Part shown: positions 2,022-20,900 of the stretch, one piece after another
How the letters are laid out: each line of letters begins with the position of its first letter
How positions within the stretch are numbered: the stretch's first letter is position 1
Assembly: GCA_023384675.1 (NCBI GenBank)
Contig: JAHDVK010000030.1
Location: 1-64,000 of the forward strand
Length of the DNA stretch: 64,000 bases
Origin: Bryobacteraceae bacterium
Lineage (GTDB): Bacteria; Acidobacteriota; Terriglobia; Bryobacterales; Bryobacteraceae
Reading direction: 5' to 3'
Program-made: the position numbers and the translations under genes
Notes under the pieces: generated by a model
What the model saw: only the letters and a program-made list of their open reading frames with translations
What the model was told of the DNA's origin: nothing
The model's database searches: none

Positions 2022-3089
2022 TCAACGGCTCCGGTCGTCCCTGCGGGCCGCATTAATGGTCACCAGGACACGGTCTGAAGCGCCCAGAACCTCTTCGTGG
2101 AAGCGGTCGCAGCCAAGGCAGAGGTTTCGATAGAGCCTGCCATCCGGATGCCGCAGAGTGCTTGCTTCGAGGAACTTCTCTACGCTCCAGCCGTGAGAAA
2201 TGCCCATGCGTTCGGGATGGCCCATCGAAATCGCTTCATAGACGGGATTCCCCGCGCAGCGCTCCAGGATGGCTTCGAGGGGTTCTTCGAGCAGATTCCC
2301 CAGTGGTTTCTTCGTCTTCAGACAGCAGGGATGGACATTCCCGTTGGGCTCAATCGAGACTTCGGAACCCTTGAGGCGATACTGAAGAAAGTTGAGGCCG
2401 CCGGACCACTGGTTGCAGAAATTATCGACCAGAGTCGCGGAACTGAGAGAGTTCTGAAGAGCCCGGCCACGGGGCCACAAGCGTCCGATCCAACTGCCGG
2501 GCTGCGCGCCGAAGAACTGATAGAAGGGGCCGGGGCCCTCGGCTTCGCCGGTGTGTTCGGCGACCGGTGCGAAGTTGCGCATACCGGCGGATTCGAAGTA
2601 CCCGGTGAGCTTGTCCACCAGCACCTGCTGGTCGGCGGGCCGTTCCAACCCCTCATGGAACTCATCGATGCCCGAGACCGAGATCATCCACACGTCGCGT
2701 TGGAGCAGTTCATCGATCATGCGCGGCTTCAGGATGTCGCCGGTCGTCTGGACGATGAGGTTGACTCCACCCTCGTCGCCGTAACGCTCATGGAGGAGGT
2801 CAAGCGCCGGATACAAGACGGATTCGCGAACCGGATCGAGAAGGATTTCGCCGCCCGCGAGGATGATCCGGCCACGCTTTTCGGGAAAGCTGCCATCGGG
2901 ATTCGGGTCATCCGGGTCGAGATAGGTCATCCTGGCCGGCAGATTGCCGATGATGCGGGCGAAGTTGGAGCGAGCTTCTTCGACGACCTGCGCCAGATCG
3001 TCTCCGTAATAGGGCCGGAAGCGGTCTTCGTAGCAATGGCGGCAGGTGCGGTGGCACAGCCAGCTCATGACGTAATAGATGGATTCCAT
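2022..3089 (-). CDS. radical SAM protein with C-terminal SPASM-like Cys motifs
   Basis: The 355-residue protein has the radical SAM [4Fe-4S] motif at its extreme N-terminus, CHRTCRHC (Cys12, Cys16, Cys19, CX3CX2C). A GGEILLDP segment matches the SAM-binding GGE motif. The C-terminal half carries VHPCCLKTKKPLGNL and LCLGCDRF, as in SPASM or twitch auxiliary-cluster domains, which are common in peptide-modifying enzymes. The substrate is unknown. It lies 63 bp downstream of the small membrane protein at 3153-3770, which has a GTTACC-N16-CGAA promoter, so the two are probably co-transcribed with the bufferin-type regulon. A role in that system is an inference. Confidence 0.8.
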   Translation of the reverse strand: MESIYYVMSWLCHRTCRHCYEDRFRPYYGDDLAQVVEEARSNFARIIGNLPARMTYLDPDDPNPDGSFPEKRGRIILAGGEILLDPVRESVLYPALDLLHERYGDEGGVNLIVQTTGDILKPRMIDELLQRDVWMISVSGIDEFHEGLERPADQQVLVDKLTGYFESAGMRNFAPVAEHTGEAEGPGPFYQFFGAQPGSWIGRLWPRGRALQNSLSSATLVDNFCNQWSGGLNFLQYRLKGSEVSIEPNGNVHPCCLKTKKPLGNLLEEPLEAILERCAGNPVYEAISMGHPERMGISHGWSVEKFLEASTLRHPDGRLYRNLCLGCDRFHEEVLGASDRVLVTINAARRDDRSR

Positions 3090-3152: not shown

Positions 3153-3770
3153 TCATGCCAGATGCCTGCCGAGTGTGGCCGTTAAGGAGCAGCATTCCAT
3201 GGGATGGTGCTCCGGGTCGAGACGGGCTTCGCCGACACAGGCTTCGTGAAGATGGATGAGGCGCCGGATCAGTAGGATACCGGCGACCCAGGCCGCGAGC
3301 GCAAACAGCAGCAAGGCGTGGACGGCGAAAGCGCCGGCTCCTTCGGCAGGGAGGCCAAACCGGTGCACAACCACGAGGAGTGCCGCTGCGGCCAGGCCCT
3401 CTCCGATGCGCGAGGCGGTTCCGTCCACGAGGATTTTGACGATGCCCCGGACTTGTCCGCGACGAGCGTGTAGGACTGCTCCCAACATCAACGTTCGCAC
3501 GAACCGGTCCGCCGAAGCGTCTCCGAGCGCGGCGAAGGGCAACAATCGATCGAGGCGGCGCCTTGGAGGTGGACTCTGCGAGGGGAATAGCGCTTGGGCG
3601 CGAGGAGTCGTGAGGGCGGCTCCGATGAGGAGAGCAGCGGCCACCAAGAAGAGAGCGGTCGCGGGCAAGCCGAGACGGGGGACCGCTCGCTCGCAACCTG
3701 GAGGCGGTTTTTCAACGCCGGATTGGAGCAGCCAGACCATGATCTGCGAGCGAGTTCCCAGGGCATTCAA
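3153..3770 (-). CDS. small multi-spanning membrane protein of unknown function, in the sigmaF-type regulon
   Basis: The 205-residue product has about three hydrophobic segments (near residues 35-53, 123-140 and 145-168) and a Cys/His-rich tail (HLHEACVGEARLDPEHHPMECC). The middle part, RGQVRGIVKILVDGTASRIGEGLAAA, faintly recalls nucleotide-transporter-like MFS proteins, but I do not assign it. No ATG or GTG precedes the first membrane segment. I chose the TTG at 3770 because an AAAGGGG RBS lies just upstream and a promoter at 3814-3789 would start the message about 15 bases before it. The reading frame stays open upstream to the end of the TonB gene, so a longer ancestral form is possible. 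Confidence 0.6.
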   Translation of the reverse strand: MNALGTRSQIMVWLLQSGVEKPPPGCERAVPRLGLPATALFLVAAALLIGAALTTPRAQALFPSQSPPPRRRLDRLLPFAALGDASADRFVRTLMLGAVLHARRGQVRGIVKILVDGTASRIGEGLAAAALLVVVHRFGLPAEGAGAFAVHALLLFALAAWVAGILLIRRLIHLHEACVGEARLDPEHHPMECCSLTATLGRHLA

Positions 3771-3788: not shown

Positions 3789-3814
3789 TTCGTCCCAGCC
3801 CTCGCCATGGTAAC
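3789..3814 (-). promoter_or_regulatory. sigmaF-type ECF promoter (GTTACC-N16-CGAA) for the membrane protein and radical SAM gene
   Basis: Read on the minus strand, GTTACC (3814-3809), exactly 16 bases, then CGAA (3792-3789). It lies just downstream of the TonB gene's stop codon and 19 bases before the TTG at 3770. The motif is identical to those at 9390-9415, 13434-13459 and 17766-17791. Confidence 0.7.
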
Positions 3815-3837: not shown

Positions 3838-6800
3838 CTAGAAACTCAGCTTCAAGCCGAGCTGGACGATGCGGGGAGGGGCCGCGGCCACGAAGGCGCC
3901 CGGGGCGGAGGTCAGGTCCGTGACCGGCCCCTGGAAATTCACCGTGTTGAGGGCATTCATGAATTCCGCCCGGAATTGCAGCGCGGCCCGTTCCCGGAGG
4001 CGGAAGGTGCGGAACACCGAAAGATCCACGCTGCGGTAGGAATCGCCCCGGACGATATTGCGCCCCGCGTTGCCGAACTCACCGAGCGCCGGAAGCGCAA
4101 AGGCGGCGGGGTTGAACGCCAAGCCGCGTGGAACGTTGCGATTTGGATCGCCCACCACATGGGGCCGGTTGAACGCTTCGTTGCGGAAGGGGTCGAATCG
4201 GTTCAGGAAGGGTGTGAACGGCTGGCCGGACTGGAGAGTGACCAGCGCGTTGAGCGACCATCCGCTCAGCATTGGCCGCCAGAAAGAGCGCACACCGGCA
4301 AACCGGGGAAGTTCATACTGGCCGCTGGCGGTGAACCGGTGCGGGACATCGAAGCTGGACACGGCACGCTGACCGGCAAGGTTGTTGGCGTTGAGGACCT
4401 GCTCGGAGGGGTCGGCCGAATTGAAATCGCTGGCTGTATCGATGGACTTCGAGAAGGTGTAGGAGGCGTCCAGCGTCAATCCCTTGCTCATCCGCCGGAT
4501 CAGGCGCGCCTGACCGCTGTGATAGGTGGAGGTTCCGACGTTTTCGCTCAGGGTGATGTTGTCGAACTCCGGATAAGGCCGCAGCGGTTGCAGCAGCGCG
4601 GTCGTATCCCGGCCCGCCGCGACGGCGGTGGCGAGAGCAGCGCGCTGATCCGCCGTCAAGGCTTCCAGCGGGACCTGGTTACCGTTCCGGTACACCGGCA
4701 GGCGAAGACCGCGCGTGCCGGCGTAGCTCAAATCAAGGAGCCAGGCGGCGCCCAGGCGGTGCTGAAGTCCAAGCGAGTACTGAATCGTGTATGGATTGCG
4801 GAACCCGCCAATCGCGCCCAGGCTTCGGGAAGGAGCGGCGAGTGCGGCGAGGTCCAGCAGGGTATTCGACGCGCCGCCCGCGGAGAATGGCGAGGGCGTG
4901 CGCGTCACGGCCAGGGAGGAAAACGGCGCGTTGTTTTCGACCAGTTCAACCGAATTGGCCTGCAGCAGTGTCTCGTAGAGGATGCCAAAGCCCCCACGCA
5001 GGACCGTGGTGCCGCGTCCGTTGAAGTCGAATGCGAAGCCGGCCCGCGGTGCGAAGTTGTTGCGATCGGCGGGGTAGAGACCGGGGAAAGACGCCGCCGA
5101 GGCGTCCAGCAGCCCTTGGCCCGGGAGGAGATTGGACAGCTTGTTGTTCACTTCGGTCCAAGGCGCTGTGTAGTCGTAGCGCAAGCCGAGGTTGAGCGTG
5201 AGCCGGGGTGTGAGCCGCCAACTATCCTGAGCGAACAGCGATCCGGACCACTGGCGGAAACCGCGTCCGAACTGTCCGCGGGTGATGGATGCCTCCGAGG
5301 GAAGGCCCAGGAGGAAATCGGCGAGCACGGCTGAGCGCTCATTGCCAGGGAGGAGAGGGATGGTGGAGTCCCGGGTCCCATCAAAGACCACGGAGCCGCG
5401 CATGTTGAATGCCCCCCGGGTATTCAAGTGCTGCCGAAACAGGATGCCGCCGAACTTCAGGCTGTGCTTGCCTCGTAGAACGCTGAAGGAATCGGCGATT
5501 TGCAGAGTGGTTTCGTTCTGGTCACGGTTGAGCCACGCTTGTCCGCCAAGGCCTTCAAGATTGCCTCCGCGAAAACCGATGGAAGGGATTCCGTTGGCCA
5601 CGCTGCCGTTGGGCAGGCCGATTTCAGCTGCGCTGAGCGGATCGCCGTTGGCCAGCGGATTCCGGTAGCGGTTGAGGCCGACCCGCAATTCGTTCACCAT
5701 GGAGCCGCTCAGGGTTCGGGTGTAGCCGACGGCGGCGTTGGTGGTCTTTTCCGGGTTCGGGAGCGAGAAACCAGGGATGAAGGGTCCGCCGAAGCGGTTG
5801 ATCACATATTCCTGGTCATTGAGGTTCCACGAGAAGCGGACGCTCAGCAGATCGCGGGCGGAGAGATGGTGGTCGGTACGAGCGTGGGTCTGATAGTCGT
5901 TCAGGCGGATCAGCAACGAAGAACTGTAATTCAATCCCGCGGGGCCGGACGTGTTCGCTTCGGGATAGAGGTCGAGCAGGCGGCGGGTGAGTGGGTTGAT
6001 GCGGCTGGACAGATCCAGTTGCCGTTCCGCGCCGCCTGTATCCCGAAAGCGGAGCAGGCCGCGCTTTTCATCGGCGCTGGGGACGCCCACGAGGCGGGTT
6101 TCGACGCCCTCCACGATGCGGAGCAATTCAGTGTTCACGAAGAAGTAGTGGCCGCGGCGGGCGAGCGGCCCGCTGAGACTGCCCCCGAACTGATTCTGGC
6201 GCAGCTTTCCGCGGGGCAGCCCGGCGGCGTTATTGAAGGGATCGTTGGCATCCATCCGGTCGTTGCGGAAGAACTCATAGAGGCTGCCGCGGAATTGGTC
6301 GCCGCCGCTGCGCGTCACCATGGTGACGGCCGAACCCATGGTGGAGCCATACTCGGCGGGCGGGGTCCCGGTCACCAGACGAAACTCCTCGACGGCTTCG
6401 ACGGAAGGCTCGAAATTGATCACCCCGTACTGGCGCAGATTCAACGTGACGCCGTCCAATGTGAAGTTGTTCGAGCGGCCGCGCGCGCCGTTGACGTTGA
6501 AGGCGCCTTCCAGGTTCTCTCGCGCCTTGCCGTAGCGGTTGGCCGCGGTGGACCAGTTCCAGCCTGCGGCGATACCCGGAGCCAAGAGTGCCAGGTTTTG
6601 CAGTTGGCGGCCATTCAGCGGCAGATTCTGGATCTCATCGCTGAGGACTGCGCGGGAGAGCATCGAGGATTGGGTGTCGATGGGCGATAGCGTCTCGCTC
6701 ACCTCCAACGACTGGCTGGCGCCTTCAATCGCCAGCCGGACATCGGCGCGCCTTTGCTGTCCGACATGGAGGTCGATGTCAGCCAGTTCCACCGGGGCGA

Positions 6801-7053
6801 AACCGGATTTGACGAAGCGCAGCGAATAGCGGCCGACCGGCAATGCCGCGAGAGAGAACTGGCCCTGTTCATTGGTTTCTGAGGTCGAGGAAACGCTCGC
6901 GCCCGCGCGCGTGGCCGTAATGAGGACATCCTTCACCCCGCGTCCTTGCGGATCGGTGACTTCGCCGGAGATCGCGGCGGTATGCATTTGGGCAGCGGCG
7001 CTCCACGAGAGCAGGAATAGGGCGGCAGTGAGCCGCAAGTGACTTCTAGACAT
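3838..7053 (-). CDS. TonB-dependent receptor, Oar-like, coupled to the MNIO operon
   Basis: This outer-membrane receptor of about 1071 residues has a signal peptide ending SWSAAAQ. It is followed by a carboxypeptidase-regulatory-like domain (ISGEVTDPQGRGVKDVLI, residues about 28-110), a plug region with the LPLNGRQLQNLALLAPG signature, and a large beta barrel ending in the aromatic terminus GLKLSF. The ligand cannot be read from sequence. The start is ATG 7053, or GTG 7059; both lie inside the end of the BufC-like gene (stop at 7046-7048), so translation is probably coupled. Such receptors are common in Acidobacteria, but this placement, directly in a metal-binding RiPP operon, suggests transport of a peptide- or metal-related ligand (inference). 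Confidence 0.9.
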   Translation of the reverse strand: MSRSHLRLTAALFLLSWSAAAQMHTAAISGEVTDPQGRGVKDVLITATRAGASVSSTSETNEQGQFSLAALPVGRYSLRFVKSGFAPVELADIDLHVGQQRRADVRLAIEGASQSLEVSETLSPIDTQSSMLSRAVLSDEIQNLPLNGRQLQNLALLAPGIAAGWNWSTAANRYGKARENLEGAFNVNGARGRSNNFTLDGVTLNLRQYGVINFEPSVEAVEEFRLVTGTPPAEYGSTMGSAVTMVTRSGGDQFRGSLYEFFRNDRMDANDPFNNAAGLPRGKLRQNQFGGSLSGPLARRGHYFFVNTELLRIVEGVETRLVGVPSADEKRGLLRFRDTGGAERQLDLSSRINPLTRRLLDLYPEANTSGPAGLNYSSSLLIRLNDYQTHARTDHHLSARDLLSVRFSWNLNDQEYVINRFGGPFIPGFSLPNPEKTTNAAVGYTRTLSGSMVNELRVGLNRYRNPLANGDPLSAAEIGLPNGSVANGIPSIGFRGGNLEGLGGQAWLNRDQNETTLQIADSFSVLRGKHSLKFGGILFRQHLNTRGAFNMRGSVVFDGTRDSTIPLLPGNERSAVLADFLLGLPSEASITRGQFGRGFRQWSGSLFAQDSWRLTPRLTLNLGLRYDYTAPWTEVNNKLSNLLPGQGLLDASAASFPGLYPADRNNFAPRAGFAFDFNGRGTTVLRGGFGILYETLLQANSVELVENNAPFSSLAVTRTPSPFSAGGASNTLLDLAALAAPSRSLGAIGGFRNPYTIQYSLGLQHRLGAAWLLDLSYAGTRGLRLPVYRNGNQVPLEALTADQRAALATAVAAGRDTTALLQPLRPYPEFDNITLSENVGTSTYHSGQARLIRRMSKGLTLDASYTFSKSIDTASDFNSADPSEQVLNANNLAGQRAVSSFDVPHRFTASGQYELPRFAGVRSFWRPMLSGWSLNALVTLQSGQPFTPFLNRFDPFRNEAFNRPHVVGDPNRNVPRGLAFNPAAFALPALGEFGNAGRNIVRGDSYRSVDLSVFRTFRLRERAALQFRAEFMNALNTVNFQGPVTDLTSAPGAFVAAAPPRIVQLGLKLSF

Positions 7054-7900
7054 AAACACGCTGAAACAGCCTTTCTGTGAACCAGTTCCGGAACCACTCG
7101 TAGACTAGGCCCTCGCCGGTGCCGCCCGCGTCGAACATCGCCTGTACGGCTTCGCCCAAGGTGAGGCCTTCGCACAGGGACTGAAGCAGGGCGTAGGCAG
7201 GGCGGCTGAGCGGCAGATAGAAGACGTGAAAGTCGCGCCGGTACACGACGAGCCGGGTCCTGGCGGGCCGCAGGCGAGGCAGCGCATCTTCACTCCGCAG
7301 AGCTTCGAGATAGCGGTGGGCGGGGTATGACAGTTCCACGAGCCGCAGGGCGCGAATGGGGGTGAAGCGCAAGTCGTCCCACTGCTGGTAGGAGAATCGC
7401 GAGATCGCCCCAGGCCCAGCCGTGGGGGATTCCTCTTCGTCGAAGACGAAGGTGCTTGCGAGTTCGAGCCGGGCCAGGTCCTGCAATAGACGTGGCCGGG
7501 GGAGCCCTTCCAAGTCATCAAGGAAGCCGGGCAAGCCGTCCCCCAACCGGTTGAGCGTATAGCTGCGGGAAGGATGGGCGGTGATGTACAGTCGCGCCAA
7601 TTCGGCAAACTGTTCCTCGCCCAGAAAGTGCGCCAAGCCGGGGTAGTCCGTCCGGAGCGCCTCAGTCAGCCGGAGTTCGTACATCCCCCGGTAGATATCC
7701 AGCCTCTCCAAGGGCGCCAGGGTCCGCGAGGGGCGGATTAGCCCTGGCGCCCGGCTTGCGGGAAATTCCTTCGTGGCAGAAGACGTGCGAATCGCCTGCT
7801 CGACAGGGCCCTCCGCAAGAATACAGGCCTGCATCCATCGTTGGACACGGCCGAGCGGGTAACCCCGGGTCAGTTCATGCGGCGTGGATGCGGGTTGCAC
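7046..7900 (-). CDS. bufC: BufC/HvfC-type MNIO partner protein (DUF2063)
   Basis: The 284-residue protein matches the DUF2063 'putative DNA-binding' family, now regarded as the recognition or chaperone partner of MNIO (DUF692) enzymes. Characteristic stretches are RLDIYRGMYELRLTEALRTDYPGLAHFLGEEQFAELARLYI and HPSRSYTLNRLGDGLPGFL, followed by a C-terminal winged-helix-like half. It should bind the precursor leader and present it to the MNIO enzyme. It starts at GTG 7900, inside the last 26 bases of the MNIO gene, and overlaps the TonB gene at its end. The gene order precursor, MNIO, BufC is the standard one for bufferin-type clusters. Confidence 0.85.
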   Translation of the reverse strand: MQPASTPHELTRGYPLGRVQRWMQACILAEGPVEQAIRTSSATKEFPASRAPGLIRPSRTLAPLERLDIYRGMYELRLTEALRTDYPGLAHFLGEEQFAELARLYITAHPSRSYTLNRLGDGLPGFLDDLEGLPRPRLLQDLARLELASTFVFDEEESPTAGPGAISRFSYQQWDDLRFTPIRALRLVELSYPAHRYLEALRSEDALPRLRPARTRLVVYRRDFHVFYLPLSRPAYALLQSLCEGLTLGEAVQAMFDAGGTGEGLVYEWFRNWFTERLFQRVYV

Positions 7901-8741
7901 GCGTCACCTCGTTCTGCGGGGCGGCGCGGAAGCCGCGGGCCTTGAGCGCCTCAGCGTGGACGATGTCGAAAGAGGGGATGTCCTCATCCCACTCCAGCAG
8001 GGTGGAGATGTTGCCGAGGCGCTGGCTCGCGCGGCGGTACAACGCCCACACGGCATCGACTACATGATCGCTGTGCGTGTCGAGAATGTGCGTTCCCTTG
8101 TGCGTATGCCCTGCCAGGTGGATCTGAACCACCCGGTCCTCGGGAATCCTGTCGACGTATTCGAATGCGTCGTAGCCGTGGTTAAAAGCGCTGACGTAAA
8201 CGTTGTTCACGTCCAGCAGCAGCCCGCAGCCGGATCGTTCGGTGAGTTCGGCGAGGAAGTCCCATTCGCTCCAGGTCGACTCGGAGAATTCGAGATACGT
8301 GGAGGGATTCTCCAGGAACACGGGCCGTTCGAGGTAGTCCATAATGACGCGGACGCGCTCCGCGGCGTGGCGCAGGGACTCATCGGTATACGGCATGGGC
8401 AGCAGGTCATGAGTATTGACACCCGAGACGCCGGTCCAGCAGAGATGATCCGAGATCCAGCGCGCACGAGTCCGGCACGCCAGGGCCTTCAGCTTGCGGA
8501 GATAGTCGAAGTCGATGGGATCGGTGCTGCCGACGGATAGAGACACGCCGTGCATCACGACGGGATAGCGCTCGGCAACCTGGTCGAGAACATAGGCCGG
8601 GCGACCGCCGGTATCGAGGAAGTTCTCCGACAGGATTTCGAACCAGTCCACAGGCGGACTTTTGGCGAGGATGTGCGGAAAATGCACGGTTCGCAAACCG
8701 ATGCCGAAGCCCAGATCGGGGATGCCCCAGTTGTTTGCCAT
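7875..8741 (-). CDS. bufB: MNIO-family (DUF692) multinuclear iron oxidative enzyme, BufB-like
   Basis: The 288-residue TIM-barrel enzyme is of the DUF692 family, iron enzymes that oxidatively modify cysteines in ribosomal peptides (MbnB and BufB are characterised members). Expected metal-site residues are visible: His64 in MHGVSLSVGS, Asp98-His99 in ISDHLCW, Glu144 in LENPSTY, Asp177/Asn180 in LLLDVNNVYV, His208 and His212 in IHLAGHTH, Asp221/His223 in DTHSDHV, and Glu250 in LLEWDEDIP. The length is normal. It lies 155 bp downstream of the Cys-rich precursor gene and overlaps the BufC-like gene, so it almost certainly modifies that precursor's cysteines. The exact product (thiooxazole, oxazolone-thioamide or other) cannot be inferred. 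Confidence 0.92.
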   Translation of the reverse strand: MANNWGIPDLGFGIGLRTVHFPHILAKSPPVDWFEILSENFLDTGGRPAYVLDQVAERYPVVMHGVSLSVGSTDPIDFDYLRKLKALACRTRARWISDHLCWTGVSGVNTHDLLPMPYTDESLRHAAERVRVIMDYLERPVFLENPSTYLEFSESTWSEWDFLAELTERSGCGLLLDVNNVYVSAFNHGYDAFEYVDRIPEDRVVQIHLAGHTHKGTHILDTHSDHVVDAVWALYRRASQRLGNISTLLEWDEDIPSFDIVHAEALKARGFRAAPQNEVTRATRIHAA

Positions 8742-8896
8742 CAGAGTCTATCTCCCTCGCTTCGTGGATTGGGGCCCGCCGCGCCAAGGTAGGGGTAGCG
8801 CGGCGGGCATCACCGGTGGCGGACCTTCCAAGTTCGCACCGGACGAGGCGCCGCCGGCACCGGAGGAGTATGCCGGTGACGCCAAGATCGATGGCA

Positions 8897-9307
8897 TTAC
8901 GCGTAATAGAGCCGCCGCGGACGGAGCCGGAGGGACTTCTTCCGGGCCTTGAGCGGGACCGCGCAGCCGCCTTTGCCTTTGCAGGAATTCTTGCCGGCGC
9001 AGCCGTTATCCCCGCTGGAGCAGCCGCCCTGTCCCTTGCATTCGTTCATGCCCTTGCACTCGTGTTTGGCGACCGTGGCGCAGCCGCCCTGGCCCTTGCA
9101 GGCATTCTTGCCTGCACAGTCGTTCTTGGCCGTCTTGCAGCCGCCCTGACCTTTGCATTCGTTGTGGCCCTTACAGACATTCTTGGCCGCCTTGCATTCG
9201 TCCTTGGCCTTCTTTTCCTGCGCAAGCGCACTGGCCGCGGCGGCGCTGGCGCCGATACCGGCGACCGCCGCGCTCAAGGTCGCGCCAAATTTCCTTCTGG
9301 TCATCAT
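8897..9307 (-). CDS. Tat-exported Cys-rich RiPP precursor with four CxGxNxCKGxGGC repeats (bufferin-like)
   Basis: The 136-residue protein begins MMTRRKFGA, a twin-arginine signal with a predicted ALA|Q cleavage site near residue 29. The mature part has 13 cysteines. Cys38 comes first, then four triplets with exact spacing of six (45-51-57, 64-70-76, 84-90-96, 103-109-115), each reading C-[KA]-G-x-N-x-C-K-G-[QK]-G-G-C. Linkers are 6-7 residues, and the last 17 residues form a strongly basic tail (KARKKSLRLRPRR...). A strong RBS (GAGAGGGA) precedes ATG 9307. It is followed by the DUF692 and BufC-like genes and preceded by a sigmaF-type promoter. It probably becomes a periplasmic metal-binding peptide. 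The family differs from classic DUF2282 bufferins in leader type and repeat. Confidence 0.85.
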   Translation of the reverse strand: MMTRRKFGATLSAAVAGIGASAAAASALAQEKKAKDECKAAKNVCKGHNECKGQGGCKTAKNDCAGKNACKGQGGCATVAKHECKGMNECKGQGGCSSGDNGCAGKNSCKGKGGCAVPLKARKKSLRLRPRRLYYA

Positions 9308-9389
9308 TCGTCCCTCTCTTGTTTGCATCCCGGATTTCTGAAGAGCCAGCGCCAACGCGTCGTCGTTTCCGGCCCGTCTGCAGATGGGA

Positions 9390-9415
9390 TTCGCGCTCGT
9401 CGCCCGGCTGGTAAC
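9390..9415 (-). promoter_or_regulatory. sigmaF-type ECF promoter for the precursor-MNIO-BufC-TonB operon
   Basis: On the minus strand, GTTACC (9415-9410), 16 bases, CGAA (9393-9390), with a leader of about 75 bases to ATG 9307. The motif matches the GTAACC-N16-CGAA consensus I recall for Caulobacter sigmaF promoters, which also drive DUF692 operons. A divergent copy lies 33 bp away at 9449-9474. Confidence 0.75.
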
Positions 9416-9448: not shown

Positions 9449-9474
9449 GTAACCAGATGCCTTCCGCCGGCGAA
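9449..9474 (+). promoter_or_regulatory. sigmaF-type ECF promoter for the oxidoreductase-ferredoxin-sigma-NrsF operon
   Basis: GTAACC (9449-9454), 16 bases, CGAA (9471-9474), about 50 bases before the start codon at 9527. It would place the ECF sigma gene at 11.9 kb under its own control if that sigma factor reads this motif. Confidence 0.75.
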
Positions 9475-9526
9475 CACCAGAACGGAGGAGCCAATCGCGG
9501 CAGCCGTTCGCCGCGAGGCCGTGAAT

Positions 9527-10813
9527 ATGCACTACGTCATCGTTGGGAATGGAGTCGCCGGAATCACCGCCGCCTTCGCTTTGCGAAAGCGGGATGCGAG
9601 GGCGAAGATCACCGTGATTAGCGGAGAAAGCGAGTATTTTTTCTCGCGCACGGCGCTGATGTACGCCTTTCTGGACCGGATGAATCTCCGTGACCTCGAA
9701 CCGTTCGAGCGTAAGGTCTATCAGAAGCAGCGCATCGATCTGCTCCATGGGTGGGTTGAAGACTTGAATGCAGACCGGCGCGAACTCCGCCTGAAGGATG
9801 GCGCCGAAATCCAGTATGACCGGCTGCTGCTGGCTACAGGGTCCGCGCCGAACCGTCCGGACTGGCCGGGACTCGGTGAGGTGAAGGAGGGCGTGGTCCA
9901 CTTCGTCTCGCTGCAGCACCTCGCGGAGTGCGAGCGCTTGACGCCGAGCACGCGCAGGGCAGTAGTTGTCGGCGGCGGCTTGATCGGTGTCGAACTGGTG
10001 GAGTGCCTGGTCCATCACGGCGTGGAAGTGGATTTTCTGGTTCGCGAGGACTGGTATTGGCCGATGGCGCTGGCGCCGGAAGAAGGAAAGTTGATCGCGC
10101 AACACCTGCGTCATCATGGCGTGCGGCTTCATTTGCAGGACGAGGTGACGGGTGTGGAATCCGGAACCGGCAGCCGCGTGTCGGCGGTTCAGACCGGGCA
10201 AGGAAAGAAGTTGCCCTGCGAGATGCTGGGGATCTGCATTGGTGTGCGGCCGGCCGTGGACTGGCTCCGAGGCGTCGCCACCCCGCCGGCGCTGGGCCGA
10301 GGTATTCAGGTGGACCGCGGCTTTCGCACGTCCCTGCGGGATGTCTGGGCGGCGGGCGATTGCGCGGAATTCCAGCGCCCGGACGGCACGCCGTTCGTCG
10401 AGCAGATCTGGTATTCAGCGAAGCGCCAAGGTGAACTCGCCGCGCGAGCCATGCTCGGCGATTCGATCCGGTACGAACCGCCTCTATTCTTTAACAGCGC
10501 CAAGTTTTTCGAGATCGAGTACACCACCGTGGGAGCCACCACCCGGCTTCCTGACACCGCCCGCAGTTTCTTTCACCGCTGGGCGGACCGCGAAGCCACC
10601 ATTCGAATTGTTGAGGAAAACGGCGCCGTGACCGGCTTCAGTATGCTCGGTTCCCGGTGGGATCACACGGTGCTGGAGCGGTGGGTCGGGGAGAGACGGA
10701 GCCTGGACGACGTGGTCGCCCGGCTGCATGAGGCTCAGTTCGATGTGGAGTTCGGGCGGGTTCCGCTGGCCGGTCTGCGCGCGGCGTTCGGCGCGCGGGA
10801 GGTGCGCGCATGA
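9527..10813 (+). CDS. FAD-dependent NAD(P)H oxidoreductase (pyridine nucleotide-disulphide family)
   Basis: The product is about 428 residues. The N-terminal FAD-binding GxGxxG region is VIVGNGVAGITAAFAL, the central NAD(P)-binding Rossmann motif is VVVGGGLIGVELVE, and the FAD-closing motif is VWAAGDCAEF, so both nucleotide sites are intact. The fold is that of rubredoxin, ferredoxin or nitrite reductase subunits; no redox-active CxxxxC pair is seen. I prefer ATG 9527 to GTG 9521 because the GAGG RBS at 9514 is 9 bases from the ATG. Its stop overlaps the next gene (ATGA at 10810), so it probably passes electrons to that membrane iron-sulfur protein. A sigmaF-type promoter lies just upstream. 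Confidence 0.88.
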   Translation: MHYVIVGNGVAGITAAFALRKRDARAKITVISGESEYFFSRTALMYAFLDRMNLRDLEPFERKVYQKQRIDLLHGWVEDLNADRRELRLKDGAEIQYDRLLLATGSAPNRPDWPGLGEVKEGVVHFVSLQHLAECERLTPSTRRAVVVGGGLIGVELVECLVHHGVEVDFLVREDWYWPMALAPEEGKLIAQHLRHHGVRLHLQDEVTGVESGTGSRVSAVQTGQGKKLPCEMLGICIGVRPAVDWLRGVATPPALGRGIQVDRGFRTSLRDVWAAGDCAEFQRPDGTPFVEQIWYSAKRQGELAARAMLGDSIRYEPPLFFNSAKFFEIEYTTVGATTRLPDTARSFFHRWADREATIRIVEENGAVTGFSMLGSRWDHTVLERWVGERRSLDDVVARLHEAQFDVEFGRVPLAGLRAAFGAREVRA

Positions 10814-11901
10814 TCAAGGCAGGCACGGCGCAATGGCTTCTGCATGACGTCAAGAACCGAGGCATCACCGCCTGGCTGCTGGCCGTAGTGCTGACTTCGT
10901 TTTACCTGGTGCTCTACTTCACCGAGTGGCTCACTCCGGCGGCGCGCGCGGTGGGTCTCGACGGCAAGTGGACGTTGTACGGACTCCTCTACTCGATTGC
11001 GATTGTCTGGGGCGGCATTTATGTGATCCGCAAGTACCGGCACAACCGGTATCAGATCGTCCGCACCAGCGTGGTCATTTTCGTGCAGGTTACGTTCGCG
11101 TTCTCCATTCCGCAATTGCTGAAGTTTCTCCATCAGCCGGAGTATTACTTCAGCTATTTGTGGCCTCTGAAGATGGAATACCTGACGCCGGGCTATATCT
11201 TCTCTCTCCCATTACCGTTCATTCTCTATAGCTTTCTGGGCTCGCTCCTCATGGTGCCGGTCCTGGCGGCGTTATTCGGGAAGCGTTGGTATTGCTCCTG
11301 GGTTTGCGGGTGCGGCGGGCTGGCGAATACATTCGGCGAGCCTTGGCGCCATCTGTCGGACAAATCGAGCCTGAGCTGGAAGATCGAGAAGGTCGCCGTC
11401 CATACCGTATTGGCCACGAGCCTGCTGCTCACCGCGCTTCTGTTTGTGACGTGGGGCGTGGGCAAGAGCAATCCAGAAGTAGCGCGGTTCACTTATGGCT
11501 TTCAATCCTTTTATGGGCTGATGGTCTCATCTATGCTGGCCGGCGTGGTCGGCGTAGGCCTGTATCCGCTCGGCGGAACGCGAATCTGGTGCCGGTTCTT
11601 CTGTCCCATGGCGGCGCTGCTCGGGCTGGTGCAGAAATTCGGCCGCTACCGGATTCGCGTGAAGGAGAACATGTGCATCTCCTGCGGGCTCTGCTCGAAG
11701 TATTGCGAGATGGGGATCGATGTCCGCAGCTACGCGCAGGCGAGCCAGAGCTTCACGCGGGCTTCGTGCGTGGGGTGCGGCCTGTGCGCGGAGGTTTGCC
11801 CGCGCGGGGTTTTGCGTTTGGAAAACGTGCGTGTCCGGGCGCCGCAGGAAGCGAGTCTGATTCAAATCAGTCCGATGCCGTCTGTACGGCAAGCGGGATA
11901 A
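10810..11901 (+). CDS. membrane-bound 4Fe-4S protein (NapH/CcoG/NosR-like)
   Basis: The 363-residue protein has about five or six transmembrane segments (near residues 20-37, 52-70, 85-105, 128-155, 190-215 and 230-250). It has the polyferredoxin signatures CSWVCGCGG after TM4 and CRFFCP after TM6, then a cytoplasmic or periplasmic bicluster ferredoxin domain, CISCGLCSKYC and CVGCGLCAEVCP (about 290-340). All eight ligands for two [4Fe-4S] clusters are present. Such proteins shuttle electrons across or along the membrane. It is translationally coupled to the FAD oxidoreductase; together they look like an electron-supply unit for the regulon, possibly for metal reduction or for keeping peptide thiols reduced (inference). 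Confidence 0.85.
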   Translation: MIKAGTAQWLLHDVKNRGITAWLLAVVLTSFYLVLYFTEWLTPAARAVGLDGKWTLYGLLYSIAIVWGGIYVIRKYRHNRYQIVRTSVVIFVQVTFAFSIPQLLKFLHQPEYYFSYLWPLKMEYLTPGYIFSLPLPFILYSFLGSLLMVPVLAALFGKRWYCSWVCGCGGLANTFGEPWRHLSDKSSLSWKIEKVAVHTVLATSLLLTALLFVTWGVGKSNPEVARFTYGFQSFYGLMVSSMLAGVVGVGLYPLGGTRIWCRFFCPMAALLGLVQKFGRYRIRVKENMCISCGLCSKYCEMGIDVRSYAQASQSFTRASCVGCGLCAEVCPRGVLRLENVRVRAPQEASLIQISPMPSVRQAG

Positions 11902-11925: not shown

Positions 11926-12642
11926 TTGCAGTTGACGGCCTGTTGGGATGAGACTCAAGAGATGGTCCCGCGCGAGATGGCGGCGGGGCCAGAGCCCCCA
12001 ATGACCGATCCTTCGGCAATTCCTGCTTCGGAGCCCACTGCCGTCTCCGCCGAGCAGTCCGCACAGCGCGAACTGTTGATCGACCTGATGAAGCGCTACC
12101 AGGATGCAGATGCGAGCGCGGCGGACGAACTCTTCCGCCAAGTGAATCCGGTTTTGGCCCGGTACTACTACTCGCTGGTCAACCAACCGGGGCAAGTGGA
12201 AGATCTTCTGCAGGAGTGCTGGCTCCGTGTGCATCGGGCGCGGCAAAGCTACCGGCCGGGCGAACCCGTGCTGCCCTGGATCCTGGCCATCGCCCGTCAC
12301 ACGCGCGTGGACCAGTTCCGGCGCTGGCAGCGCTCCTCAGGGAGGGAATCGAGTATCGACGCGATGACCCAGCATCCCTCGATGGATCCCCGCAAGGCGA
12401 TGGATTCGCGGCTACGCGCCGACGCCGTCATGCAGGCCATGGAGACCTTGCCCGAGGGCCAACGTGAAGTCCTGATCATGCTGAAGGTCACGGGGATGAC
12501 GGCCGCGGAGGTGGCCCGCGCCACCGGGAGCACCGCCGCGGCCGTGAAGCAGAAGGCGTTTCGAGCTTACCAGGCGATTCGGCAGACCCTGAAGATGGGG
12601 GCGGAGCCAGAGGAGAACAGGGATGACGTGCAAGGAAGTTGA
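11926..12642 (+). CDS. ECF RNA polymerase sigma factor (sigmaF-like)
   Basis: The 238-residue sigma-70 family protein has region 2 at about 45-115 (ADELFRQVNPVLARYYYSLV...VEDLLQECWLRVHRARQSY...PWILAIARHTRVDQFRR) and region 4 at about 165-225 (LPEGQREVLIMLKVTGMTAAEVARATGSTAAAVKQKAFRAYQAIR). The TTG at 11926 has an AAAGGAG RBS 12 bases upstream; ATG codons at 11962 and 12001 are alternatives, and the first 40 residues are low-complexity. The next gene, an NrsF-like anti-sigma, overlaps by 20 bp. It probably reads the GTWACC-N16-CGAA promoters found around it, one of which lies upstream of this operon. Confidence 0.9.
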   Translation: MQLTACWDETQEMVPREMAAGPEPPMTDPSAIPASEPTAVSAEQSAQRELLIDLMKRYQDADASAADELFRQVNPVLARYYYSLVNQPGQVEDLLQECWLRVHRARQSYRPGEPVLPWILAIARHTRVDQFRRWQRSSGRESSIDAMTQHPSMDPRKAMDSRLRADAVMQAMETLPEGQREVLIMLKVTGMTAAEVARATGSTAAAVKQKAFRAYQAIRQTLKMGAEPEENRDDVQGS

Positions 12643-13402
12643 CCAACTGTTGAGCGAAGGCCGCCCCCCTGCCGAGTTGAAGGCGCTGCCGGGTGTCCTG
12701 CAGCACCTGGATAAGTGTGTCCGCTGCCGGCGAATCCTCCAGTGGATGTTGTCGCCCTCGCCGGAGCCGGACATGCGCGCCTCACTGGGGGAGCGCGTGC
12801 AGGCCATCACGCACACGGACCTGAAGAAAGTGAAGCCGCTCCCGCCACTGGGCGTAGCGGCGTTGGGCGCCGTCGCAGTCACCGCGCTGGTTGCCGCCTT
12901 GCACGCGCTCACGATGGGCATTGATGGGTGGACGCGGCTGTCAGCAGCGCAGGCCGGCTTGATTGGAGGGCTGGCTCTGGCGGTGGTGCTCTCGGCCGCG
13001 GCCAGCTTGATCGCGTCCATTCGTCCGGGAAGCCCGCAATGGGCTCCGCCCGTGATCCCGCTCGCTTTGCTCGTGCTGGGATTCCCCATCCTTGCCGCGG
13101 TCCTGTTTCCGTTCGCGGAATGGTCCCATCTGCTCGAGCACGGAATCGACTGCCTTGCCGCCGGGCTCATGGTGGCCGCTATTACGGCTGGTATGACCTG
13201 GCTGGTGGCCAGGCGGGGTTATTCCACGGACTGGAGCCGCAGCGGCGCGCTGATTGGCGTCATCGGCGGGGCCGCCGCCGTTGTCGCGTTGCAAATCTCC
13301 TGCTCCGCGCACGAGGCCGGGCATTTGATCGTGTGGCACGGCCTCGCGGCAGTGATCGCGATCAGCGGCGGATATCTCGTGGGACGCCGGATGAATTCCT
13401 AG
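12623..13402 (+). CDS. NrsF/DUF1109-like membrane anti-sigma factor with N-terminal CxxC motif
   Basis: The 259-residue protein has a short cytoplasmic N-terminus, MTCKEVDQLL..LQHLDKCVRCRR (a zinc-finger-like H-x3-C-x2-C), then six hydrophobic helices (about 77-97, 108-128, 140-162, 170-192, 205-225 and 238-255). This is the topology of DUF1109/NrsF proteins, which hold sigmaF at the membrane and release it on heavy-metal or oxidative stress through a Cys pair. Cys3, the finger cysteines, and Cys in the LQISCSAHEAGH and HGIDCLAAG segments are candidate sensors. It overlaps the sigma gene by 20 bp, which fits a cognate pair. Confidence 0.82.
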   Translation: MTCKEVDQLLSEGRPPAELKALPGVLQHLDKCVRCRRILQWMLSPSPEPDMRASLGERVQAITHTDLKKVKPLPPLGVAALGAVAVTALVAALHALTMGIDGWTRLSAAQAGLIGGLALAVVLSAAASLIASIRPGSPQWAPPVIPLALLVLGFPILAAVLFPFAEWSHLLEHGIDCLAAGLMVAAITAGMTWLVARRGYSTDWSRSGALIGVIGGAAAVVALQISCSAHEAGHLIVWHGLAAVIAISGGYLVGRRMNS

Positions 13403-13433: not shown

Positions 13434-13459
13434 GTTACCGGAAGCGCCTGTTCCCCGAA
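13434..13459 (+). promoter_or_regulatory. sigmaF-type ECF promoter for the AhpD-like gene
   Basis: GTTACC (13434-13439), 16 bases, CGAA (13456-13459). The next start codon is ATG 13567, so the leader is about 100 bases. It is the third exact match of this motif within 10 kb. Confidence 0.7.
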
Positions 13460-13566
13460 TTCCTTACTGACATCGCATGAATGGCGCGACGCGCGACATG
13501 CCGGTCAATCGCCGGCTGCCGGTCGCGACGCCTTCGAAACACAAGTCACCAACGGATAAGGAAACT

Positions 13567-14133
13567 ATGATCAATTTGACGGTTTTGAACGAACAAAACG
13601 CGCCGGAGGAGTCCCGCGGCGTGCTCGCCCAGGTGCGGCAGAAGTTTGGCTTTGTGCCCAACATGCTGGGAACCATGGCCCATGCCCCCACCCTTCTGAA
13701 GACCTACCTGACGGTGTCCTCGATCTTTGAACAGGGCACGCTGAACCCCGTGGAGCAGCAAGTTGTGCTGCTGAGCGTGAGTGCGCAGAACGGTTGCGGC
13801 TATTGCGTGGCGGCCCATACGGTGATCGCCGGAATGGTGCAGGCGCCGCAGGATGTGGTCGATGCCATCCGCGCCGGATCGCCGATCGCCGATCCCAAGC
13901 TCGAAGCACTGCGGCGGTTCACCGCAGATGTCGTCGAGAAGCGCGGATTTCCGGGCAAGGACAGCGTGAACGGGTTCCTCGCGGCGGGGTATTCGAAGGA
14001 ACAGGTGCTGGAGGTGCTTGTCGGGGTGGGCATGAAGACGATCTCCAACTACACCAACCATCTCGCGGAAACGCCGCTCGACGCGGCGTTCGCGCGAGCG
14101 GAATGGCAGCCCGTCGAGGCCGCTGTCCGTTAA
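13567..14133 (+). CDS. carboxymuconolactone decarboxylase / AhpD-like family protein
   Basis: The 188-residue AhpD-fold protein has the redox CxxC and general-base motif NGCGYCVAAHT (about residues 75-85), as in alkylhydroperoxidase-like members rather than in true decarboxylases. It probably acts as a thiol peroxidase. I chose ATG 13567 because an AAGGAAA RBS is 5 bases upstream and the protein then begins INLTVLNEQNAPEESRGVLAQVRQKFGFVPN, normal for the family; the frame extends back to 13477 but without family similarity. It has its own sigmaF-type promoter and a strong terminator, so it is a monocistronic member of the metal/thiol-stress regulon. Confidence 0.88.
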   Translation: MINLTVLNEQNAPEESRGVLAQVRQKFGFVPNMLGTMAHAPTLLKTYLTVSSIFEQGTLNPVEQQVVLLSVSAQNGCGYCVAAHTVIAGMVQAPQDVVDAIRAGSPIADPKLEALRRFTADVVEKRGFPGKDSVNGFLAAGYSKEQVLEVLVGVGMKTISNYTNHLAETPLDAAFARAEWQPVEAAVR

Positions 14134-17765: not shown

Positions 17766-17791
17766 GTTACCAATTATGGCGTACCGCCGAA
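17766..17791 (+). promoter_or_regulatory. sigmaF-type ECF promoter for the TonB receptor at 17940
   Basis: GTTACC (17766-17771), 16 bases, CGAA (17788-17791), in the 264-bp divergent intergenic region and about 150 bp before ATG 17940. It is the same motif as at the bufferin-type operon, so this receptor is probably in that regulon. Confidence 0.65.
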
Positions 17792-17939: not shown

Positions 17940-20900
17940 ATGCAAAGCCGCATCCTTCTAACTCTCGCGCTTCCCTTGCTCCTTACGGCGCAGGAATACC
18001 GCTCCACCGTATCCGGAACAGTGTCAGATCCCTCGGGCGCCTCTGTTCCCAACGTGAAGATCCAGGTCACGGAGAGAAACACCGGCGCCCGGTATGAAAC
18101 CGTCTCCGGCCCTTCGGGCGACTACAGCCTTCCTTTTCTGCCTCCGGGCCCTTACACCCTAACAGCGGAAGTGGACGGCTTCAAGAAATCAACGCAGGAG
18201 GGCATTAACGTCACCACGAACCAGCGCCTGACGGTGAACATCGCGTTGCAAATCGGCAGCCAGGTGGAGACTGTCACGGTCACCGCCGATGCCACCATGC
18301 TACAGACCGCCACTGCCAGCGTCGGTCAATCCATCAGCGAGAACCAGATCGCTTCGCTTCCCATGAACGGCCGGACCCCTCTCACCCTCGCCCAGCTTTC
18401 TTTCGGCGTCACTCCCTCCTCTGACCCACGCTTCACCCGCCCCTTCGATAACGCCGGCCCTTCCGGCTTTTCAATGGGCGGCGGACAGGCGCGATCCAAT
18501 GAACTTCTGCTTGACGGCGCACCCGATATGACCCGCAACCGCCGGGTCGCGTACAATCCGCCCGTCGACGCCGTGCAGGAAATCAAGGTCGAAGCCTTCC
18601 AGCCCGACGCCGCTTACGGCAGCACCGGCGGCGGCACGGTCAATGTCGTCATGAAGGGCGGCACCAATGAACTCCACGGCTCGCTGTACGAGTTCCACCA
18701 GAACCAGCGTCTCAAGGCCACCCCCTTCTTCACCAACGCCGCCGGCCAGACCAAGCCCGTCACCCGCTTCAATCAATACGGCGTCACCGTGGGCGGACCG
18801 GTCGTGCTGCCCAAGATTGTCGACGGCCGCAACCGCCTCTTCTTCTTCTTCGGCTCCGAAGGCATCCGCCAGTCTGAACCCGAACCGGCCTTCTCCACTG
18901 TGGCTACCGCCGCTCAGCGTCAGGGTAACTTCTCACAGCTCCTCACCGTCGGATCGGCCTACCAGCTCTATGACCCCACCACGGGCGTCCGCGAAGGCAG
19001 CCGCATCCGCCGCCAGCCTTTCGCCAACAACATCATTCCCACCTCGAGGCTGAATCCCATCTCGCAGCGCTTCCTCGAGTTCATCCCACAACCGAACGTC
19101 ACCGGCGGCCCCGCTGACGGCACCAATAATTTCTTCAGCAACATGGTTCGCTCCGACGTCTTCAGCTCCTTCATGGGCCGCATCGACCTCAACGTCAGCG
19201 ACCGCCACAAGCTCTTCCTCTCCGGCCGCTACAACGACCGCATCGAGAACCGCGGCAACCGCTTCGATAACATCGCCACCGGCAACAATCTGCTCCGCCA
19301 GAACTGGGGCGTCACCCTGGATGATGTCTACACATTCACCCCAACCTTGATTCTCAACACCCGCCTGAATTGGACGCGCTTTGTCGAGGGCGGCATCCGC
19401 CAAAGCGACGGGTTCGACTTCACCTCCCTCGGGCTGCCCGCCTCTCTTCAGGGCTCCAGCGCCAGGAACGTAATGCCCATCGTCGACTTCTCCAACTTCA
19501 CCGACATCGGCCACAGCGGCGGTGACCGGACCCCCTTCGACTCGTATCAGATCTTCCTCGCTGCCACCAAGATCTACGGCCGGCACACCTTCAAATTCGG
19601 TACGGACCTTCGCACCCAGCGGGAAAGCTCCAACAACTTCGGCAACTCCTCCGGCGCCTTCACCTTCGCCCAGAACTGGCTGCGCGGCCCGCTCGACAAC
19701 GCACCCAACGCCCCGCTCGGCCAGGACCTCGGCGCCTTCCTCCTCGGCCTGCCCACCGGCGGCAGCTTCGATGTCAATGCCACCCGCACCCAGAGCAACA
19801 AGTACGCCTCGTTCTTTGTTCAGGACGATTGGCGCGTTTCCCCCACACTCTCCTTCAACTTCGGACTCCGATACGAAAAGGAAACCGGTACCATCGAGCG
19901 GCACAACCGCGCTGTTCGCGGCTTTGATCCCTCTGCCGGCCTCGCTGTTACCAACGCTGCCCGTGCCGCGTACGCAGCCAACCCCTCGGCACTGCTACCG
20001 GCCAGTCAGTTCAACCCCGTCGGCGGCCTCCTCTTCGCGGACCCCGATAACCGGCGCATTTTTGAAACCCCTTCAAACGTCTTCAGCCCTCGCTTCGGCT
20101 TCTCCTGGAGCCCGTCTGTCCTTGGCTCGAAGACTGTCTTCCGCGGCGGCGCTGGCGTCTTTTATCAGACCTTCGGTACCTTCGGCATCCAGCAGCCCGG
20201 CTTCAGCCAGCGCACCCCGCTGGTGGCTACTCTCGACAACTTCCTTACCCCATCCGCCAGCCTTTCCGATCCCTTCCTTAGCGGCATCCTTCAGCCCTCG
20301 GGCGCAACCGCCGGCGTCAACACCTTCCTGGGCCAGAACGCTCGCTTCGTGAAGAGCGAACTCGATCAGCCCTACACCGTCCGCTGGAACTTCAACATCC
20401 AGCGAGAACTCGCAAACAACCTGCTGCTGGAAGTCGGCTATATCGGCTCGGTCGCCCGCCGCATCCCCGTCGACCGCAACGTGAACTTCTTCCCGGCCGA
20501 GTTCCTCTCCACCTCTCCTGTCCGGGATCAAGCGAACATCGACCGCCTGACCGCCGTCGTCGCCAATCCCTTCCGCGGCCTGCTTCCCGGTACCGGCCTC
20601 AATGGCAGCACCATCTCCATCGAACAACTCCTCCGGCCTCACCCGCAGTTCTCCGGCACAGGCGGCGTCCGCGAAGACGCCCAGACCGTCGGGTACTCCA
20701 ACTTCCACATGTTCCAGGTACGCCTCGACCGCCGCTTCGCCAATGGACTCCAGTTCCTCACCAACTTCCAATGGTCGAAGATGCAGGAAGCGACGAACTA
20801 CCTCTTCGAGTCCGCCCCCACCCTCAACCGGCGCATCGCCGGCGAAGACCGGCCCCTGCGGCTCGTCTTCTCGGGCACCTACGAATTGCCCTTCGGCCGT

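Follow-up and report, generated by a model that had tools for sequence, protein, structure and literature searches.

The 64,000-nucleotide stretch analysed here (positions 1 to 64,000, forward strand, of contig JAHDVK010000030.1 from the Bryobacteraceae bacterium assembly GCA_023384675.1; hereafter the window) carries on its minus strand, from position 9307 to 7046, the genes bufA, bufB and bufC in this order, which together form a Buf2-type bufferin operon. The precursor that it encodes belongs to a known family; what looks new, as judged from sequence comparison, is its N-terminal signal, which is of the twin-arginine translocation (Tat) type and recurs in a group of related operons. We consider it likely that the precursor is modified first and then exported by Tat, and that it serves in periplasmic metal buffering under the control of a sigma factor and an NrsF-type anti-sigma factor. 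The three genes are:

8897..9307, minus strand: bufA2-like precursor, 136 aa (alternative start at 9304; match to NCBIfam NF050166)
7875..8741, minus strand: bufB, MNIO maturase, 288 aa (PF05114, NCBIfam MNIO_BufB)
7046..7900, minus strand: bufC, 284 aa, DUF2063 plus a partner resembling the recognition elements (RRE) of ribosomally synthesized and post-translationally modified peptides (RiPPs) (PME type 1; PF09836, predicted fold)

The MNIO gene matched PF05114 (E 6e-107) and the NCBIfam model MNIO_BufB (360.6 bits, above the cut-off of 310), and the DUF2063 gene matched PF09836 over its cut-off (E 6e-21). Together with the gene order, these matches bear out the assignment to a bufferin-type MNIO operon, with DUF692 and DUF2063 genes following the precursor, which had been proposed in an initial reading made from the sequence alone (the sequence-only reading). 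The precursor itself was matched by the NCBIfam BufA2 model (NF050166) with an E-value of 5.3e-16 and 58.6 bits against a cut-off of 60, and scored 63.9 bits in a six-frame search when both matching stretches were joined. The sequence-only reading had regarded it as new-looking; a new kind of precursor can, however, be ruled out, since the BufA2 model (E up to 1) matches 51 of the 52 related precursors with a twin-arginine (RR) signal and 58 of the 59 without one that are described below. For the bufC product, matches to NGO1945_C and NCBIfam HvfC were both under cut-off. Its AlphaFold2 model (pLDDT 92.5) predicts a fold that Foldseek relates to TglI (8hi7_A, E 4.5e-7) and NGO1945 (3dee, E 2.1e-5), with a very weak match to leader-bound RRE domains (5v1v, E 2.3). 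bufB is the single PF05114 gene of its genome (5.73 Mb in 60 contigs), in which no second BufA2-model match was found beyond the precursor open reading frame (ORF) at E up to 0.001. The operon is not a trait of the genus: PF05114 was found in two of four genus genomes including that of the window, and the match in the other one was weaker (175 bits).

The precursor is organised as follows:

9221..9307, minus strand: twin-arginine signal peptide, residues 1–29 (TRRKF, then an AAVAG hydrophobic region), inferred to be cut after ALA
9137..9175, minus strand: module 1, residues 45–57, first half of 6-Cys domain 1 (exact motif)
9080..9118, minus strand: module 2, residues 64–76, second half of domain 1 (exact motif)
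9020..9058, minus strand: module 3, residues 84–96, first half of domain 2 (exact motif)
8963..9001, minus strand: module 4, residues 103–115, second half of domain 2 (exact motif)
8900..8950, minus strand: basic C-terminal tail, 17 residues (from sequence; in the nearest alignment rows only)

All the features of this ORF that the sequence-only reading had listed could be confirmed, namely 13 cysteines (residues 38, 45, 51, 57, 64, 70, 76, 84, 90, 96, 103, 109 and 115), four modules of the form C.G.N.CKG.GGC with exact spacing (starting at residues 45, 64, 84 and 103), a twin-arginine N-terminus and a basic tail (KARKKSLRLRPRRLYYA; 8 of its 17 residues are basic). None of 20,000 shuffles of the mature region contained even one module, and the modules are therefore not due to chance. 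In a 20-row alignment of related precursors Cys38 was not conserved, being private to the window precursor, so that the conserved core comprises 12 cysteines, not 13. The central cysteine of the N-x-C-K-G motif (residues 51, 70, 90 and 109) was invariant, as were Cys 45, 76, 84, 96 and 115; Cys 57, 64 and 103 are absent from some of the 20 rows, the first two jointly in L083–L085. When the 52 RR precursors were aligned, only the R, R and F of the signal were invariant, and most of these cysteines nearly so. The long basic tail was present only in the rows nearest to the window (e.g. L083, L085, L049 and L096) and looks lineage-specific. The Buf2 family is described as having six cysteines in 90% of its members and 12, as a doubled domain, in the rest (PMC12452194). 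Thus, while the exact repeats recognised in the sequence-only reading stand, what it took for four 3-Cys modules makes more sense as a pair of 6-Cys Buf2 domains of this published 12-Cys class, and its statement that known bufferins use other repeats does not hold. The repeated modules are probably modified, and we propose the N-x-C-K-G cysteines as the modified sites.

In order to place the precursor among its relatives, BufB loci were collected from five sources: BufA2-model hits in Acidobacteriota (8 of 61 relatives and 38 of 396 genomes of the phylum); seven further MNIO loci from the same Acidobacteriota genomes; BufB relatives from named genomes, of which the best 80 of 573 were kept; a small number of additional hits from 12 of these genomes; and matches of the BufA2 model in Pseudomonadota (present in 61 of 398 genomes, 25 over cut-off, with 30 loci taken). 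Besides the window, 40 of the 50 Acidobacteriota places with a BufA2 hit were fetched with wide flanks; of the other ten, eight were later read from short loci, and two (G159:C519 and G280:C18) were left out. After removal of BufB rows that duplicated others, were truncated or fell short of 250 aa, 139 distinct BufB loci were retained. A precursor could be read in 111 of them; the other 28 are unlabelled and include some other MNIO types (e.g. L165–L169). The sampling is not neutral, as 80 loci were chosen by nearness to the window BufB and the Pseudomonadota rows by BufA2-model score, and the fractions given here are not population estimates.

In these 111 of 139 loci the motif-bearing precursor lies on the same strand as bufB and within 1.6 kb upstream of it, which speaks against the idea that the precursor is an unmodified, metallothionein-like exported protein and that the MNIO enzyme acts on something else. 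That idea might draw on the lack of a confident predicted fold for the precursor and on similar cysteine-rich repeats at five of the 40 fetched loci (L052, L056, L057, L060 and L076), where no bufB match was found within ∼6 kb on each side. Homologues away from a DUF692 gene, which the sequence-only reading had counted as unfavourable to its proposal, thus do occur at the level of the locus, but each of the five genomes has a PF05114 gene elsewhere, and we regard the metallothionein explanation as very improbable. In a search of 22 genomes for PF05114, the only one without a match was G159, which is 71% complete.

Tat is the export route for proteins that are already folded. The window precursor starts with MMTRRKFGATLSAAVAGIGASAAAASALAQ, and the pattern used to search for comparable signals allowed F, L, M, I or V at the hydrophobic position after RR-x. 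RR-x-F was found in 52 of the 111 distinct BufB-linked precursors and was missing from 59. A branch of the BufB tree (SH-aLRT 97) sets apart a group of 72 rows that holds all 52 together with 20 non-RR rows, and none of the 39 rows outside that group (24 Pseudomonadota and 15 Acidobacteriota) has the motif; nor does any of eight further Acidobacteriota 6-Cys precursors read afterwards, outside the table. On this tree the RR state requires seven changes, against a mean of 37.1 after shuffling, and none of 500 shuffles was as low. The RR rows come from Acidobacteriota (31), Planctomycetota (19), one member of the Verrucomicrobiota and one metagenome-assembled genome (MAG) labelled Proteobacteria. 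The Tat-like signal noticed in the sequence-only reading is present not only in the window but also within a group of relatives, and its remark that known bufferins use other leaders agrees with the main text of PMC12452194, where export is by Sec and the terms 'Tat' and 'twin-arginine' do not occur. We found no report of Tat-exported bufferins in the open-access literature, a scope in which the original bufferin paper, figures and supplements do not fall, so that an earlier Tat prediction may exist there.

An ordinary Sec-exported Buf2 bufferin, in which RR-x-F is a mere basic n-region with no bearing on the route, is an alternative that agrees with the description of published bufferins as Sec-exported (PMC12452194). 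Several properties of the signals argue against it. F occupies the fixed position in 52 of 52 RR rows although five residues were allowed, and, as stated above, the motif is absent from all 39 rows outside the group. When the N-termini of the RR rows were shuffled, the pattern arose in 4.9% of cases. A weaker hydrophobic region is typical of Tat signals, and the best 13-residue hydrophobicity averaged 1.81 in RR precursors, 2.01 in the 39 rows outside the group (Mann-Whitney p 5e-4) and 2.09 in the 20 non-RR rows inside it (p 5e-5). Hidden Markov models (HMMs) of Tat signals gave weak matches within the set of 52 (TIGR02811 in 20, TIGR01409 in 7 and PF10399 in 10) and none among the matches listed for the 59 non-RR precursors; one of the scans listed 25 of 29 families, so that a model with a single matching member could have escaped notice there. 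On this evidence we regard Sec export of the window precursor as unlikely.

A number of observations weigh against Tat export. The window precursor has no Tat-signal HMM match at E up to 1, and the matches in its relatives are all weak, the best having an E-value of 0.0012. Twenty of the 72 rows in the group lack RR and have a similar hydrophobic region, which points to a different route in close relatives; since TatC was found in 30 of the 31 genomes tested, which include those of RR as well as non-RR loci, its presence does not predict the type of signal. The tree was a quick IQ-TREE calculation with a midpoint root, its starred branches alone force only two changes rather than seven, and the program that picked starts was allowed to take an earlier ATG where RR was seen. 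The first precursor copy in L193 (Pseudomonadota) reads KRRLV and would pass the loose pattern (the bufB-adjacent copy was used), and the bufB-unlinked precursor of L056 has RR without F (RRDA). AlphaFold2 predicted no confident fold for the window precursor (mean pLDDT 50), which also leaves without support the suggestion of the sequence-only reading that Tat export implies folding or metal loading in the cytoplasm first. In favour of Tat export, TatC is encoded in the genome of the window. Absence of TatC was considered as a cause of the non-RR signals in the group and rejected, the only exception among the 31 genomes being G866, the genome of the non-RR locus L126.

It might also be that RR-x-F is a docking site for BufB and BufC, that is, a RiPP leader motif which resembles a Tat signal by chance. 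Conservation indeed extends beyond RR, with A, A, G and A of the hydrophobic region kept in 42, 41, 44 and 42 of the 52 RR precursors, and F and K persist in some of the precursors that lack RR (MKTTQFSKLLMTAAVAGM in L119); moreover, preliminary data for Buf1 are reported to make the signal peptide part of the recognition sequence (PMC12452194). Against this, RR is missing from 20 of the 72 rows while BufB remains in the same group, and five of the 52 RR signals end in a lipobox (own pattern), as export signals may. Docking alone thus appears to us a doubtful explanation, although the two roles may be held at once. As a separate observation, the RR-type precursors of L052, L057 and L076, with no bufB within ∼6 kb, have a lipobox-like cysteine after the signal.

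Turning to the signal as a leader, a looser core of the AGM-x-AG type was present in 19 of 20 non-RR precursors inside the group, 38 of 52 RR precursors and 14 of 39 outside; the window precursor is among the 14 RR rows that fail it. The part following the signal is far more variable and may carry 6, 9, 10, 12 or 14 cysteines, with GCKGKD arrays in L119 and L122 and a KASCKGE tandem array in L101. A steadier signal followed by a variable core fits, at the level of sequence, a signal peptide that doubles as RiPP leader. According to the authors of PMC12452194, some mechanism must prevent export before the modifications are installed, and they suggest, as a speculation, that the signal stays hidden by the partner as long as modification is incomplete; Tat would be a second solution to this premature-export problem. 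We lean towards the view that Tat takes the place of Sec in a large MNIO group found in Acidobacteriota, Planctomycetota and others, so that modification, and perhaps also the loading of metal, would be finished and checked by the time of export.

Some of the variable precursors deserve mention in their own right. In a Blastocatellia MAG, L101:5448-5921 (and likewise L163) is an RR-type precursor beside a BufB of the group, with a long KASCKGE tandem array and 17 cysteines; this type had no family match at E up to 0.01. Two planctomycete precursors and one from Limisphaerales (L129:555-998, L138:5431-5880 and L149:5444-5857) have nine cysteines each and share a C-terminal segment, W-x-x-A/T-R-x-x-F ... 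AP-A/K-K/R. Their BufA2 scores are 27.3–29.5 bits (cut-off 60), against 67.9 for the planctomycete L158, and they may represent an uncurated branch of bufferin-like substrates.

Promoter-like sites and neighbouring genes place the operon in a possible regulon. In Caulobacter, 5' RACE mapped the sigmaF motif GTAACC-N16-CGAA in front of two DUF2282-DUF692-DUF2063 operons (PMC3511200), and a pattern search for related sites, together with the surrounding genes, gave the following features:

3789..3814, minus strand: sigmaF-type site (GTTACC) before ORF 3153–3770 (minus) and the radical-SAM/SPASM gene 2022–3089 (minus)
3838..7059, minus strand: outer-membrane TonB-receptor-like beta barrel (PF25183, PF13620), its start overlapping the end of bufC
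9390..9415, minus strand: sigmaF-type site GTTACC-N16-CGAA before bufA
9449..9474, plus strand: sigmaF-type site GTAACC-N16-CGAA before a divergent redox operon
9521..10813, plus strand: FAD/NAD(P) oxidoreductase, ferredoxin-reductase-like (PF07992)
10810..11901, plus strand: NapH-like membrane Fe-S protein (TIGR02163, E 6e-20, under cut-off)
11926..12642, plus strand: extracytoplasmic function (ECF) sigma factor (PF04542, PF08281)
12623..13402, plus strand: NrsF-type membrane anti-sigma factor (PF06532, E 3e-14) with an extra N-terminal HLDKCVRC motif seen in the sequence
13434..13459, plus strand: sigmaF-type site (GTTACC) before the AhpD-like gene
13477..14133, plus strand: AhpD-like peroxidase-related protein (PF02627)
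17766..17791, plus strand: sigmaF-type site (GTTACC) before a second outer-membrane barrel gene, 17940–21368

The window contains five GTWACC-N16-CGAA sites, one with GTAACC and four with GTTACC; in 100 shuffles the mean was 0.12, and the count always stayed below five. Among the 111 loci a site lies within 300 bases before bufA in 13 (8 RR, including the window, and 5 non-RR), compared with none for the reversed control. The regulatory reading must be tempered. The pattern was widened from GTAACC to GTWACC after the pair of sites at bufA and the redox operon had been seen, which leaves three of the five sites in the window that do not depend on this choice. GTAACC alone has one site in the window, at the redox operon and not at bufA, whose GTTACC is one base off the Caulobacter motif. 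The whole genome contains 17 GTWACC sites versus 10 for the reversed pattern, so most hits outside the window may be due to chance.

In the window the sigma and NrsF genes sit in the divergent operon, not within bufABC. An ECF sigma gene adjoins the operon also in L083, L084, L085 and L089, where it is divergent and accompanied by the redox pair, and, downstream, in L049, L088, L091 and L093; as L093 and L049 share the same BufB, these are seven distinct loci. NrsF was matched in six of the eight, the exceptions being L088 and L089, where the contig ends near the sigma gene. In PMC12452194, Buf1 clusters are described as having sigma and NrsF genes and Buf2 clusters as not having them; judging by gene content, the Buf2 loci listed here are exceptions to that survey pattern. 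In three Pseudomonadota Buf2 loci (L178, L180 and L181) a weak sigma-factor match (27–32% identity) lies nearby, and the sigmaF motif precedes bufA. Among the loci searched, the oxidoreductase and NapH-like genes occur together with bufABC only in L083, L084, L085 and L089 besides the window, and the link of the redox pair with bufferin systems in general is therefore limited. The HLDKCVRC motif of the window NrsF-type protein we take to resemble a zinc anti-sigma domain.

Of the remaining genes behind such sites, ORF 3153–3770 is membrane-like and had no Pfam match, and the radical-SAM/SPASM protein (PF13186) is possibly a second peptide-modifying enzyme of the regulon. The TonB-receptor-like barrel at 3838–7059 is found in the same place in L083 and L085 (72–73% identity), so that the operon of this lineage may have it as a fourth gene.

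Taken together, the likely course would be the following. A metal signal would cause NrsF to release the ECF sigma factor, which would transcribe bufABC and the divergent redox operon from the paired GTWACC-N16-CGAA promoters. BufC would hold the precursor by its signal peptide, serving as RiPP leader, and BufB would convert the four N-x-C-K-G cysteines of each molecule into thiooxazoles by oxidation in the cytoplasm. Since Tat is a post-translational pathway, the peptide could be exported after modification; it would then be cut after ALA and would buffer metal in the periplasm, copper being suggested by analogy. If this is true, a group of RiPPs exists whose members are matured in the cytoplasm and exported by Tat, some of them lipid-anchored, and cells would thereby have a simple means of completing the chemistry ahead of export. 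A group of this kind, with sister enzymes acting on Tat-type and other substrates, offers a natural comparison, in which the question of timing becomes a signal-swap experiment. The analysis would also tie Buf2 operons to a metal response of the sigmaF/NrsF type in Acidobacteriota, and it draws attention to bufferin-like substrates with low scores against the curated BufA2 model (L129, L138 and L149).

Compared with the Buf2 bufferins (BufA2, Buf_6/12Cys) described in PMC12452194, the window system, whose precursor scores just under the BufA2 cut-off, is alike in the bufABC order, the pairing of an MNIO enzyme with a DUF2063/RRE partner and the doubled 6-Cys domain; it differs in having a twin-arginine rather than a Sec signal, as far as sequence can tell, and in the sigma and NrsF genes beside the operon. 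With the captophorins, whose description defines a Cys-Lys group and includes a model of BufA2B2C2 in which an Asp lies opposite the substrate Lys (PMC13097082), it has in common several Cys-Lys motifs, including N-x-C-K-G, and the catalytic-base Asp, inferred for the window MNIO from alignment to 3bww. The residue after that Asp is again Asp in the Cys-Lys group (PMC13097082), whereas the same alignment places Glu there in the window enzyme. At this position the RR-bearing group (72 rows) has Glu in 28, Ala in 28, Asp in 11 and other residues in 5, and the 39 rows outside it have Asp in 32, Ala in 5 and Gly in 2. The sigmaF/NrsF regulon of Caulobacter (PMC3511200) combines a GTAACC-N16-CGAA site before a bufferin operon with an ECF sigma factor and an NrsF-family anti-sigma factor, and the window resembles it in having a site of this type, one base off, at bufA and a sigma/NrsF pair nearby. 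Its operons, however, are Buf1 (DUF2282), whereas that of the window is Buf2, with GTTACC at bufA; and unlike in Caulobacter, similar sites in the window also precede a FAD/NapH-like redox operon, an AhpD-like gene and the gene for an outer-membrane barrel, and the NrsF protein has an extra N-terminal cysteine motif.

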